This document shows, in pieces, positions 28,115 through 31,465 of a DNA stretch of 64,000 nt. Below the pieces are notes generated by a model that was not told where the DNA came from, did no database searches, and was given only the letters and a program-made list of their open reading frames with translations. Every line of letters starts with the position of its first letter. The stretch's first letter is position 1. The position numbers and the translations under genes are program-made. The stretch lies in the NCBI RefSeq assembly GCF_004349065.1, contig NZ_SMKZ01000001.1:1-64000 (forward strand), in the 5' to 3' direction. The stretch comes from Jiangella asiatica. Lineage in GTDB: Bacteria > Actinomycetota > Actinomycetes > Jiangellales > Jiangellaceae.

Positions 28115-28406
28115 GGACTGATGCCTTCCGATGTGACGGCGGGAGCCGGCGCATCCTGGCTCCGGCCGACGCCAATCGTAGCTTCGCCGATGGCTCCGCT
28201 TCCGTGGCCAATCTCACGTCTGGCCTGCTCAGAGGCCTGTTCTAGCAGTGAGATCTCTCACTGAGGGTGGCCTAACTCGCCGGAGATCCTACGCCGCGGG
28301 CACGTCCAGTCGCCGTCGCGCCGGCCGATGCGTGCAATGCTCGTGTCATCGGATTCGTCCTGGTTCGTAGAGGATGGATCGGTGGCCCGGCGACAGGGGA
28401 AGCAGG
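28115..28406. other. Divergent spacer between sdhC and the sigma-factor gene
   Basis: It holds promoters for both directions. The only striking structure is the inverted repeat at 28246-28263. No small gene is seen. Confidence 0.5.
28246..28263. promoter_or_regulatory. Inverted repeat, candidate operator
   Basis: CAGTGAGATCTCTCACTG: 8-bp arms around a 2-nt spacer, about 130 bp upstream of sdhC and 145 bp upstream of the sigma-factor gene. The regulator is unknown. Confidence 0.5.
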
Positions 28407-28997
28407 GTGCTCACGGCGAGCGACACGGCGGCGCTACAGCAACTCGCCCGTGACGAGCTGCCGGGCTTGTACGGCCTCGCCCGGCACCTCGCCGGGCCCA
28501 ACGAAGCCGAGGACCTCGTTCAGGAGGCCCTGCTGAGGGCTTGTGAGTCGTTCGGGTCGCTGCGTGAGCACAGAGCCGGCGCCCGATGGCTGCGGGTCAT
28601 TCTCACCAACGTGTGGCGTGACCGGGTCCGCAAGGAGACCCGGACGGCCCGTGAGGTCCCGGTCGACGACGTCGAGGCGTTCTCGCTCTACCGCGTGCTT
28701 GTCGACGAGGACCCGTACCCGTACTCGGACACGCTGCACCTGGACTTCCTGGGCGCGTTCACCGACGGCGATGTGGACACGGTGCTCCTGCGACTCCCGC
28801 CTCGCTATCGCGCGCCGCTGGTCCTGCGCTACGTCGAGGGCTTCGCCACCCGTCAGATCGCCCAGCTGCTCGAGCTTCCGCTCGGGACCGTCCTGTCCCA
28901 GCTGCATCGGGGCAGAAAGCTCTTCGAGCGCGCCATGTGGGACTACGCCGACGAGTGCGGCTTCGTGGCCCGTCGCGACGCGGCTCGGTCGGTGTGA
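28407..28997 (+). CDS. ECF-family RNA polymerase sigma factor
   Basis: A two-domain sigma-70 protein of 196 aa. Region 2 spans ELPGLYGLARHLAGPNEAED, LVQEALLRACESF and ARWLRVILTNVWRDRVRKE; region 4 spans LLRLPPRYRAPLVLRYVEG, FATRQIAQLLELPLGTVLSQ and LHRGRKLFERAMWDYA. The linker is longer than usual. The GTG at 28407 is preferred because AGGGGAA precedes it at about 5 nt; the ATG at 28374 is an alternative. The next gene encodes a zinc anti-sigma factor, so this sigma is held inactive until a signal, plausibly redox, releases it. The likely regulon includes its own operon with the methyltransferases. Confidence 0.9.
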   Translation: MLTASDTAALQQLARDELPGLYGLARHLAGPNEAEDLVQEALLRACESFGSLREHRAGARWLRVILTNVWRDRVRKETRTAREVPVDDVEAFSLYRVLVDEDPYPYSDTLHLDFLGAFTDGDVDTVLLRLPPRYRAPLVLRYVEGFATRQIAQLLELPLGTVLSQLHRGRKLFERAMWDYADECGFVARRDAARSV

Positions 28998-29011
28998 GGA
29001 GAGGAATGGGC

Positions 29012-29260
29012 ATGGTGGATCGCATGATCAGCTGCGTCGAGGCGGTCCGGCATCTCTGGGAGTTCCTCGACCAGGGACTGCCCGACGATGCCAATCAAGC
29101 CGTCGAGGAGCACTTGGCCCGGTGCGTGCGCTGCTGCGGTGAGCTGGAGTTCGCCAGGAAGCTGCGCGGGGTGCTCCGGACGGCGACCGCGGGCCAGCTT
29201 CCCGACGATGTCCGGGGCCGTCTGGCGGGGTTCATCGACGATCTCGACCATGCGGAGTGA
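29012..29260 (+). CDS. Zinc-binding anti-sigma factor (ZAS type)
   Basis: An 82-aa soluble protein. An early ISCVEAVRHLWEFLD helix is followed by EEHLARCVRCCGEL, the HxxxCxxC half of the zinc-binding anti-sigma domain, with the earlier Cys as likely fourth ligand. Oxidation of such cysteines releases the sigma factor in known relatives (RsrA). There is no membrane helix, so sensing would be cytoplasmic. The AGGAGAGG upstream fits the ATG at 29012 (7 nt) better than the one at 29006. Its stop overlaps a GTG (29257) in frame with the following methyltransferase, so coupling is possible. Confidence 0.85.
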   Translation: MVDRMISCVEAVRHLWEFLDQGLPDDANQAVEEHLARCVRCCGELEFARKLRGVLRTATAGQLPDDVRGRLAGFIDDLDHAE

Positions 29261-29274
29261 ACGGGAGCATCGAC

Positions 29275-30078
29275 ATGAGCGGCGACCTGATGTTCCAGGA
29301 CGAGATCCGCACCAAGGTCCGTCTCGCCTACCGTGCGATACCCCAGGGGGCCGGGCGGCCCGTGGCAGAGCGGTTCTACTCCGAAGCGGAGCTGTCGTCG
29401 GTTCCCGAATGCGCGGTCGACTGGGCGCTCGGTGTCGGCAACCCCGTCCGGCATGCCGGGATCTCGCCCGGGGACGTGGTACTCGACATCGGCTGCGGAG
29501 GAGGCATCGATTCGATCCTCGCCGCTGGTCGTGTCGGTCCGGGCGGCCGCGTGATCGGGCTGGACATGCTTCCGGAGATGTGCGCGCGAGCCCGCGACGC
29601 GGCAGGAGAGGCGGGCGTGGTAGCCCGGTGCGAGTTCATGGTGGGTCTGATGGAGGACATCCCGCTACCGGACGCGTCCGTGGATGTGGTCGTCTCGAAT
29701 GGGGTCATCAATCTCTCGCCGCGCAAGAGCCGCGCACTCTCGGAGATCGCCCGCGTGCTGACGCCGGGCGGGAGGTTCTGCGTCGCCGACCTGACCGTCG
29801 AGGACGATCTGCCGGCCGAGGTGCTCACCAGTGACGCGGCCTGGGCCGGATGTGTCTCGGGCGCCCTGTCCGAGCGGGTGTTCCGCCGGAAGCTCGATCA
29901 CGCCGGGCTGGCCGGAGTCGAGATCAGCGAGCGCGTCGCGTTCGGCATCGAGGACGTCGGGTTGTATCCGCTGTTCACTCCCGACGTGCTGGACCTGATG
30001 AGCAGAGCGATACCCGAAGACCGGCGTGGCGGCGTGGCTGTCGGGGTCATCGTCCACGCCGTCGCGGCCGAGCTCTGA
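29275..30078 (+). CDS. ArsM-fold SAM methyltransferase lacking two arsenic-site cysteines (copy 1)
   Basis: A class I SAM-dependent methyltransferase of 267 aa. SAM motif I is VVLDIGCGGGIDS (68-80), then VIGLDMLPEM and the post-motif SNGVINLSPRK. The overall layout is that of arsenite methyltransferase ArsM. The two ArsM cysteines expected in LGCGNP and SNCVINL are Val (LGVGNP, about residue 54) and Gly (143), while the third survives (AGCVSGAL, Cys193). Arsenic methylation is therefore unlikely and the true acceptor unknown. GGGAG fits the ATG at 29275; a coupled GTG at 29257 is an alternative. It is encoded after the anti-sigma factor and before a membrane protein and a second methyltransferase. 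Confidence 0.82.
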   Translation: MSGDLMFQDEIRTKVRLAYRAIPQGAGRPVAERFYSEAELSSVPECAVDWALGVGNPVRHAGISPGDVVLDIGCGGGIDSILAAGRVGPGGRVIGLDMLPEMCARARDAAGEAGVVARCEFMVGLMEDIPLPDASVDVVVSNGVINLSPRKSRALSEIARVLTPGGRFCVADLTVEDDLPAEVLTSDAAWAGCVSGALSERVFRRKLDHAGLAGVEISERVAFGIEDVGLYPLFTPDVLDLMSRAIPEDRRGGVAVGVIVHAVAAEL

Positions 30079-30162
30079 GGTCGCGACGGGACCAGCTGCA
30101 ATGCCCCTGAAGCGATAAGCGTCCTGGTGTGCAGAAGGAACAAGTCGGACGGGGAGGTCGTC

Positions 30163-30666
30163 ATGGCGACTGGATCGGTACAGACAGGAACCGAGCCGAA
30201 CCTGCGGGTGGGGTCGGGTCTGATGGCATTGGCCGGAGTGGGGTTCATCGGGTACGGGGTGATCTTCTTCATCTTGAACTTCTCCGATGACTTCCTGGAA
30301 CTCGGGATCACCACCGAACAGGTCCCGGTGACCCGGGACGAGATCAAGCAGTTCAGTCCGGAGTTGTTTGAGTACGTCTCCCACCTGCACATCGCGATCG
30401 CGGGCTTCCTGATCGCGCTGGGCGTGGCACTGGCCGCTCTGGCCTGGCTGGGCGTGCAGAACGGCCAGCGCTGGGCGTGGTGGACGGCCGTCGTGACGGC
30501 AGTGCTCGCGGTAGGCGTCGCACTTCCCGCGCACTACCCGAACGACTTCGACACGATCGAGCATCTGGGGCCCATCTACCTCGCGGTGGCGATTTTCGTG
30601 GTCGGTGCGCTCCTGACCCTGCGGGTCGCGGTGCCGCGCCCCGGCGTGCACCGACCGGGAGAGTGA
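30163..30666 (+). CDS. Four-helix membrane protein between two methyltransferases
   Basis: A 167-aa membrane protein with four helices: LMALAGVGFIGYGVIFFILN, the IAGFLIALGVALAALAWLGV segment, RWAWWTAVVTAVLAVGVALP and YLAVAIFVVGALLTLRVAV. Histidines sit at helix edges (SHLHIA, PAHYP, EHLGP), which could ligate metal or heme or simply line a pore. GGGGAGG at 5 nt supports the ATG at 30163. It lies in one direction with the flanking ArsM-like genes, 8 bp before the second. I do not recognise the family; a role in moving or docking the methylated product is a guess. Confidence 0.78.
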   Translation: MATGSVQTGTEPNLRVGSGLMALAGVGFIGYGVIFFILNFSDDFLELGITTEQVPVTRDEIKQFSPELFEYVSHLHIAIAGFLIALGVALAALAWLGVQNGQRWAWWTAVVTAVLAVGVALPAHYPNDFDTIEHLGPIYLAVAIFVVGALLTLRVAVPRPGVHRPGE

Positions 30667-30673
30667 GACCGAG

Positions 30674-31465
30674 ATGAGCACCGGTACTCCCGTCGAGCCG
30701 GCGGCATTGCGGGCCTCGGTGCGCGTGAAATACGCCGAGGTGGCGGCCCACCCGGACGGTGAGTTCCATTTCCGCACGGGCCGGTCGCTGGCCAGGCTCC
30801 TCGACTACGACGGGGACCTCGTCGCGGCGCTGCCCGACCGGGCGGTCGAGTCGTTCGCCGGTGTGGCCAACCCGTTCTCGCTTCGTCCGCTCTGCCAGGG
30901 TGACCGGGTGGTCGACGTCGGGTCGGGTGCCGGCTTCGACTCGATCGTCGCCGCCCACCTGGTCGGGGACGACGGCGAGGTGGTGGGCGTGGACATGACG
31001 CCGGACATGCTGGCCAAGTCGCGGGAGACAGTGCGGCTGATGGGCCTCGATCATCATGTCGAGTTCCGCGAGGGCCTCGCCGAATCTCTCCCAGTCGACG
31101 ACGGCTGGGCCGATGTCGTGATCTCCAACGGCGTGCTCAACCTCGTCGCGGACAAGGACCGTGCCCTTGCCGAGATCTACCGGGTTCTGTCCCCCGAGGG
31201 ACGGCTGCAGTTCGCCGACATCGCGGTCGGGGCGCTGGTGCCCGCCGCGGCGGTCTGCAACATCGACCTCTGGACCGACTGCATCGCGGGCGGACTGTCC
31301 TGCGACGAATGGCGACTGCGGCTGACGGCAGCCGGATTCGCCGGAGTCCGGATCGGGCCGCCCGTCGACATCTACAGCGGAACTCCGGGACAGGCGAACG
31401 CCCGCCGGTACCAGGTCTTCGGTTACCCGTTCAGCGCTCGCAGACCTCGTCGGGCGGCTGGCTGA
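30674..31465 (+). CDS. ArsM-fold SAM methyltransferase lacking two arsenic-site cysteines (copy 2)
   Basis: A 263-aa class I methyltransferase. The SAM site is VVDVGSGAGFDS (79-90) with EVVGVDMTPDML, then VISNGVLNLVADKDRALAEI. Like its neighbour it keeps only one of three ArsM arsenic ligands: GVANP replaces the GCGNP-type cysteine, SNGV (Gly153) replaces SNCV, and Cys203 in DCIAGGL remains. An extra Cys-rich pair (C195, C210) brackets it. Copy 1 and copy 2 differ too much for a recent duplication, yet share the same losses. It is the last gene of the sigma-factor cluster and ends 22 bp before the convergent glycosyltransferase. Confidence 0.82.
   Translation: MSTGTPVEPAALRASVRVKYAEVAAHPDGEFHFRTGRSLARLLDYDGDLVAALPDRAVESFAGVANPFSLRPLCQGDRVVDVGSGAGFDSIVAAHLVGDDGEVVGVDMTPDMLAKSRETVRLMGLDHHVEFREGLAESLPVDDGWADVVISNGVLNLVADKDRALAEIYRVLSPEGRLQFADIAVGALVPAAAVCNIDLWTDCIAGGLSCDEWRLRLTAAGFAGVRIGPPVDIYSGTPGQANARRYQVFGYPFSARRPRRAAG

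Follow-up and report, generated by a model that had tools for sequence, protein, structure and literature searches.

The stretch of DNA analysed here (hereafter the window) comprises 64,000 nucleotides of the actinobacterium Jiangella asiatica (assembly GCF_004349065.1, contig NZ_SMKZ01000001.1, positions 1 to 64,000), and it carries on its plus strand a compact cluster of five genes running in one direction. The cluster begins with a gene for an extracytoplasmic function (ECF) sigma factor (28407..28997), which is followed by an RsrA-like zinc anti-sigma factor (ZAS, 29006..29260), a methyltransferase with the fold of ArsM that keeps a single cysteine (MT1, 29275..30078), a membrane protein (30163..30666) and a second one-Cys methyltransferase of the same fold (MT2, 30674..31465). 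Recurring-word analysis gave a promoter, GCAAT-N17-CGTC, ahead of sigma, ZAS and MT1 at 28334..28359, and a second copy ahead of the membrane protein and MT2 at 30098..30123, both on the plus strand. A first-pass annotation, made from the letters alone, had proposed these genes as a stress system with a dedicated sigma factor; all five are present at about the coordinates it gave, and dedicated control is supported by linked homologues and by the repeated promoter. As judged from sequence, the regulon is strongly supported.

The linkage was surveyed in 396 Actinomycetota genomes, where MT1 and MT2 were separated from other ArsM-like proteins by profile score. MT1 was found in 22 genomes at scores of at least 279 bits, the next best being 224, and MT2 in 34 at no fewer than 245 bits, the next best being 204; the two occur together in 13 genomes against 1.9 expected (p 3.7e-10). 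At 25 of the 26 MT1 loci the ZAS and sigma genes immediately precede MT1 on its own strand, and at the remaining one (L037) the contig begins inside MT1, at base 1. Within 6 kb of MT1 at these loci, MT2 is found 14 times, the membrane protein 9, OsmC 8 and DsrE 4 times, and neither the sigma nor the ZAS profile of the module has a match above threshold at 40 other ArsM-like loci. The homologues are therefore linked across actinobacteria rather than scattered, as the co-occurrence check proposed in the first-pass annotation had asked. The arrangement is also present in Chloroflexota, where contig L041 has the order sigma, ZAS, MT1, MT2, with OsmC divergent. A quick tree, built from 103 rows, has MT1 as a single group (SH-aLRT 100) and MT2 as another (98), and L078, placed beforehand in the outgroup, falls within MT2. 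Two duplicates (L195 of L033, L200 of L040) were dropped from the linkage, tree, control and statistics counts, and were still included in the initial round of hairpin folding; L071 duplicates L027, and the tree does not include L062. A related sigma/ZAS pair with one MT2-like gene and OsmC, lacking MT1, was observed in Phytoactinopolyspora-type contigs (L026 6139-8619, L027 5987-8400, L028 5179-7586), and a kinase-like (APH) gene adjoins this set in L026 and L028.

The sigma factor matches Sigma70_r2 (E 1.1e-11) and Sigma70_r4_2 (E 5.4e-15), and mycobacterial SigH is the closest of the solved structures. Its gene may start at ATG 28374 or GTG 28407, and the latter is preferred because it leaves space for a leader between the promoter (28334-28359) and the gene. 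The ZAS, of about 83 amino acids and apparently soluble, matches zf-HC2 (E 2.6e-7), has RsrA as its only solved relative (E 7.6e-6), and keeps its candidate zinc ligands C, H, C and C (codons 29033, 29111, 29123 and 29132) unchanged in all six aligned sequences. These matches bear out the ECF sigma factor and cytoplasmic HxxxCxxC anti-sigma factor read earlier from the letters, and the order, a sigma gene followed by the gene of a small HxxxCxxC zinc-binding anti-sigma factor, is the ECF/ZAS arrangement. Among known systems the pair is nearest in solved structures to SigR/RsrA of Streptomyces and SigH of Mycobacterium, and the zinc-ligand pattern is kept; however, it scores under the curated orthologue cut-offs (97.2 against 251.55 for TIGR02947, 44.7 against 62.5 for TIGR03988), and it seems to act on no more than two units, both of them local. 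Since an orthodox SigH/RsrA pair (C57) lies on another contig of the genome and scores 355.5 and 92.5 bits with the same two models, the pair of the cluster looks like a second, specialised one. By analogy with the family, the ZAS would bind the sigma factor and would be under redox control.

The promoter word is regular in its spacing. In 26 module stretches a spacer of 17 gives 40 copies, against 0-5 for spacers of 12-16 and 18-23 and 1.65 in single-base shuffles, and in the window the longer word GCAATG-N16-CGTCCTGGT occurs only at the two cluster sites and in none of 100 shuffles. When upstream stretches are measured from the profile match, not from a checked start codon, the word precedes sigma in 14 of 25, the membrane protein in 7 of 11 pieces, MT2 in 7 of 14, OsmC in 4 of 8 and DsrE in 1 of 4; it is absent ahead of MT1 (0/25) and ZAS (0/26), which fits a single sigma-ZAS-MT1 transcript. 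Variants are GGAAT-N17-CGTC ahead of sigma, MT2 and OsmC in L041, and GGAAC-N16-CGTC ahead of sigma in L026-L028. The geometry is close, not identical, to that of the SigR consensus, which we take to be GGAAT-N18-GTT, and the sigma factor of the cluster is the presumed reader of the word. Separate promoters had been named in the first-pass annotation as evidence that would speak against a common system; the promoter within the cluster repeats the one ahead of sigma, which goes against that.

A scan of the window genome for exact copies, with genes called by our own GC-bias script, gave 25 sites, most of them probably background, since a backward control pattern has 7 copies. Of these sites, 22 lie within called genes (three, L225, L229 and L230, being also within 250 bases of the next gene) and one (L218) lies outside genes with no called gene downstream; only the two cluster copies are both outside called genes and before a gene, and on these exact copies a wider regulon in this genome was rejected. 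A further regularity concerns divergent promoters: ATTGC-N14-GCAAT occurs 10 times while all other gaps from 5 to 29 occur once in total, and in eight loci (L172 7017, L176 6593, L178 1741, L179 7357, L180 1114, L182 631, L183 7411, L208 1127) two promoters point away from each other, the distance from one GCAAT box to the other being exactly 14 bases. This rule is stricter than two promoters need, and a second regulator is perhaps involved.

Both methyltransferases match Methyltransf_31 (MT1 E 4.8e-30, MT2 E 1.5e-27). The structure model of MT2, with a mean predicted local distance difference test (pLDDT) of 93.6, has its best match in ArsM with S-adenosylmethionine (SAM; 4fr0, Z 26.0), and the best match outside ArsM reaches Z 21.9, AtmM, MitM and geranyl diphosphate methyltransferases coming after ArsM in the structure list at Z 21-22. 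The three arsenic-binding cysteines of ArsM have established roles. Aligned to the ArsM chains, MT2 has V64 and G153 at the first two of these positions and C203 (codon 31280..31282) at the third; the corresponding residue of MT1 is Cys193 (codon 29851..29853), and one of three is thus kept. MT1 and MT2 loci have V, T or I, then G, at the first two positions wherever the pattern is found, against C and C at 37 of the 40 other ArsM-like loci. These 40 loci served as controls for the neighbourhood of the 82 MT loci as well: the arsenic permease ACR3 is near none of the 82 against 10 of the 40, a second permease near none against 8, and a thioredoxin-like partner near none against 16. The window proteins, at 213.6 and 189.4 bits, do not reach the cut-off of 263 of NF008823. 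The ArsM-like methyltransferases of the first-pass annotation hence hold as to fold and third cysteine, not as to the other two cysteines, and the metalloid signal that it suggested is not supported in its plain arsenic form; because of the missing cysteines, the low scores and the ACR3 counts, arsenite methylation of the ArsM type is unlikely for MT1 and MT2. At least three ArsM-like genes (L080, L100 and L102) also sit beside an ECF factor, as in the cluster, but that sigma factor is a different one with no match to the module profile, no ZAS was found at these loci, and the ArsM cysteines are present (L080, L100).

A feature that had escaped the first-pass annotation is that the codon of the key cysteine is UGA in most relatives. 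At this single invariant position MT1 has an in-frame TGA in 18 of 26 loci and Cys in 6, and MT2 has TGA in 49 of 70 and Cys in 17; the automatic count left two MT1 (L037, L193) and four MT2 loci (L026, L027, L028, L062) unassigned, of which L026-L028 and L037 are Cys when read by eye. A hairpin word follows the TGA in all 18 UGA forms of MT1 and in none of the 6 Cys forms, and one of two hairpin words follows it in 32 of 49 UGA forms of MT2, these words having been picked after the folds were seen and the shuffles preserving single bases only. The folding z of the next 33 bases averages -1.42 after TGA (n=67) against 0.41 after Cys codons (n=27), with a p of 2.6e-8 that is generous as the sequences are related. 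Since the TGA aligns with the Cys of other forms and is followed by hairpin words and lower folding z, the residue in these relatives is probably selenocysteine (Sec). SelB scores over its cut-off in 28 of 34 UGA-bearing genomes, in 5 of 9 lacking a UGA copy and in none of 5 genus members lacking the cluster; among the six UGA genomes below the cut-off, the matches are part-length or weak in G080, G170, G378, G237 and G253, and at the level of EF-Tu only in G124. No SelB over the cut-off is found in the window genome, which fits the Cys forms of its MT1 and MT2. These Cys forms nest among UGA forms in the tree, which as a whole requires at least seven changes between Cys and UGA.

The position is the UxxG of a catalogued selenoprotein, the "arsenite methyltransferase", which also occurs in fusions according to passages of three sources (PMC13188914; PMC9312934; PMC2398784). 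The homologues of MT1 and MT2 share this UxxG position with the catalogued proteins (NF008823, NF041537, NF041536, NF047649), and the best NCBIfam matches of MT2 and MT1 fall among these models; in contrast to the selenoproteins and their AhpD, DUF2284 and UXPK fusions, MT1 and MT2 of the window carry Cys and lack a fused domain. No tie to a sigma/ZAS pair was found in these passages.

Evidence on the substrate comes from neighbouring genes, of which examples were identified by Pfam. OsmC is near 15 of the 82 MT loci against 1 of 40 controls (p 0.02) and DsrE near 12 against none (p 0.0085); around the 70 MT2 loci OsmC and DsrE each occur 12 times, ArsR-rhodanese 10 and metallo-lactamase/rhodanese 7 times, and at least one of the four is present at 32. 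At seven loci (L032, L036, L040, L061, L201, L206 and L210) UGA-bearing MT2-like genes have metallo-lactamase/rhodanese and MFS genes close by, and in most cases an ArsR-rhodanese fusion as well; the same enzyme apparently answers to another regulator there. A precedent is given by MddM1 and MddM2 of Actinomycetota, class I SAM methyltransferases as MT1 and MT2 are, which by the passages of their report S-methylate H2S and methanethiol and are induced by the stress of H2S, methanethiol and H2O2 (PMC12904073).

The thiol-type switch, the MddM1/MddM2 precedent and the sulfur-type neighbours together make methylation of reactive sulfur or selenium species the leading reading, and we give a self-contained redox regulon of this kind a probability of roughly 0.45. 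At rest the ZAS would hold the sigma factor. A thiol-reactive signal, which may be an oxidant, an electrophile, sulfide or persulfide, would oxidise the zinc-bound cysteines and free the sigma factor, as in SigR/RsrA, and the free sigma factor would then read the two promoters, for the sigma-ZAS-MT1 operon and for the membrane protein with MT2. Both methyltransferases would use SAM, with the lone Cys, probably Sec in most relatives, as nucleophile or as ligand for a small soft substrate; the most likely candidates are reactive species of sulfur or selenium such as hydrosulfide, persulfide, methanethiol or selenide, which would be capped as methylated, less toxic and volatile products. Several points weigh on the other side. 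ArsR-rhodanese (p 0.10) and metallo-lactamase/rhodanese (p 0.094) show no significant excess over the controls, and the profiles used to detect neighbours derive from the same MT loci, which favours these loci. None of the four sulfur-type genes lies beside the window cluster, and 38 of the 70 MT2 loci have no such neighbour in reach, many being on short contigs. The exact promoter word is not in 11 of the 25 sigma upstream stretches. MddM1 and MddM2, with 210 and 204 amino acids, are about 50 shorter than MT1 and MT2 (267 and 263), the comparison being one of length.

Of the other explanations, chance neighbourhood of the five genes would suit the distribution within the genus, where MT2 is present in only 2 of 12 genomes (G000, G006) and where sdhC and a glycosyltransferase gene, which flank the cluster in the window genome, adjoin each other in the other 10, about 180-200 bases apart where measured. 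G003, for example, has an empty site, with sdhC 99% and the glycosyltransferase 92% identical to those of the window. It was nevertheless rejected on the gene order, conserved at 25 of 26 loci, the shared genomes and the shared promoter. As to the history of the cluster, one gain with losses, two gains and exchange all fit alike and cannot be told apart. Within the same regulon, the main rival of sulfur or selenium is a metalloid, organometal or heavy metal (a methylarsenical, antimony, tellurium or mercury) for which the lone Cys or Sec would serve as soft ligand. The ArsM fold, with ArsM as nearest solved structures, and the alignment of the kept Cys with the third arsenic cysteine both speak for it, and passages of a review list the Sec forms as arsenite methyltransferase and connect many selenoproteins of this sort with resistance to metals and metalloids (PMC13188914). 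The loss of the first two arsenic cysteines, the scores under the NF008823 cut-off and the missing ACR3, second permease and thioredoxin-like neighbours count against it, and we regard it as unlikely.

An organic substrate of the same regulon, that is a low-molecular-weight thiol, a protein cysteine, a quinone or a secondary metabolite, would accord with the breadth of the fold family, to which AtmM, MitM and the geranyl diphosphate methyltransferases belong, and with the usual task of SigR-like switches, the protection of thiol metabolism. An invariant Cys, encoded as UGA in most relatives, is hard to square with ordinary O-, N- or C-methylation, and this explanation appears rather improbable. 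Returning to sulfur and selenium, a more complete proposal is possible, namely an undescribed and transferable regulon, shared by Actinomycetota and Chloroflexota, whose dedicated SigR/RsrA-like switch governs a Cys/Sec methyltransferase pair acting on reactive selenium or sulfane-sulfur. In it Sec would serve as the catalytic ligand, and the membrane protein with its histidines would handle the substrate or the product; taken with all these details the proposal is tentative and somewhat doubtful.

UxxG "arsenite methyltransferase" selenoproteins and ZAS-controlled ECF regulons are both already known. A literature search that covered few subscription papers gave no publication that connects these methyltransferases with a sigma/ZAS pair, and none with the combination, its promoter or the MT1/MT2 pairing; Haft and Tolstoy 2025, on selenoprotein neighbourhoods, may describe part of it. 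In the review passages the UxxG proteins are catalogued without a tested role (PMC13188914). That role becomes testable through a sigma switch whose promoter can be read, since the stress would be identified by what induces this promoter, and the Cys forms of the window can be produced in ordinary E. coli, which sidesteps selenocysteine. If the sulfur or selenium substrate is right, a methylation branch would be added to actinobacterial thiol stress; it is also a warning that one-Cys proteins annotated as arsenite methyltransferase may do something else.

The membrane protein has no Pfam match and one weak NCBIfam match (EccD, 19.8 bits against a cut-off of 94.95), and its homologues are often divergent from sigma. 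The first-pass annotation described a four-helix protein with histidines at helix edges: three histidines (H74, H124 and H134 of P0004) are indeed kept in all 10 homologues, while the helix count comes from a model of a single sequence, whose quality (mean pLDDT 62) is too low for a fold search. The protein may be a redox or substrate-handling partner of the methyltransferases. One of the 10 homologues, at L188 1521-1970, is split in two by an in-frame stop.

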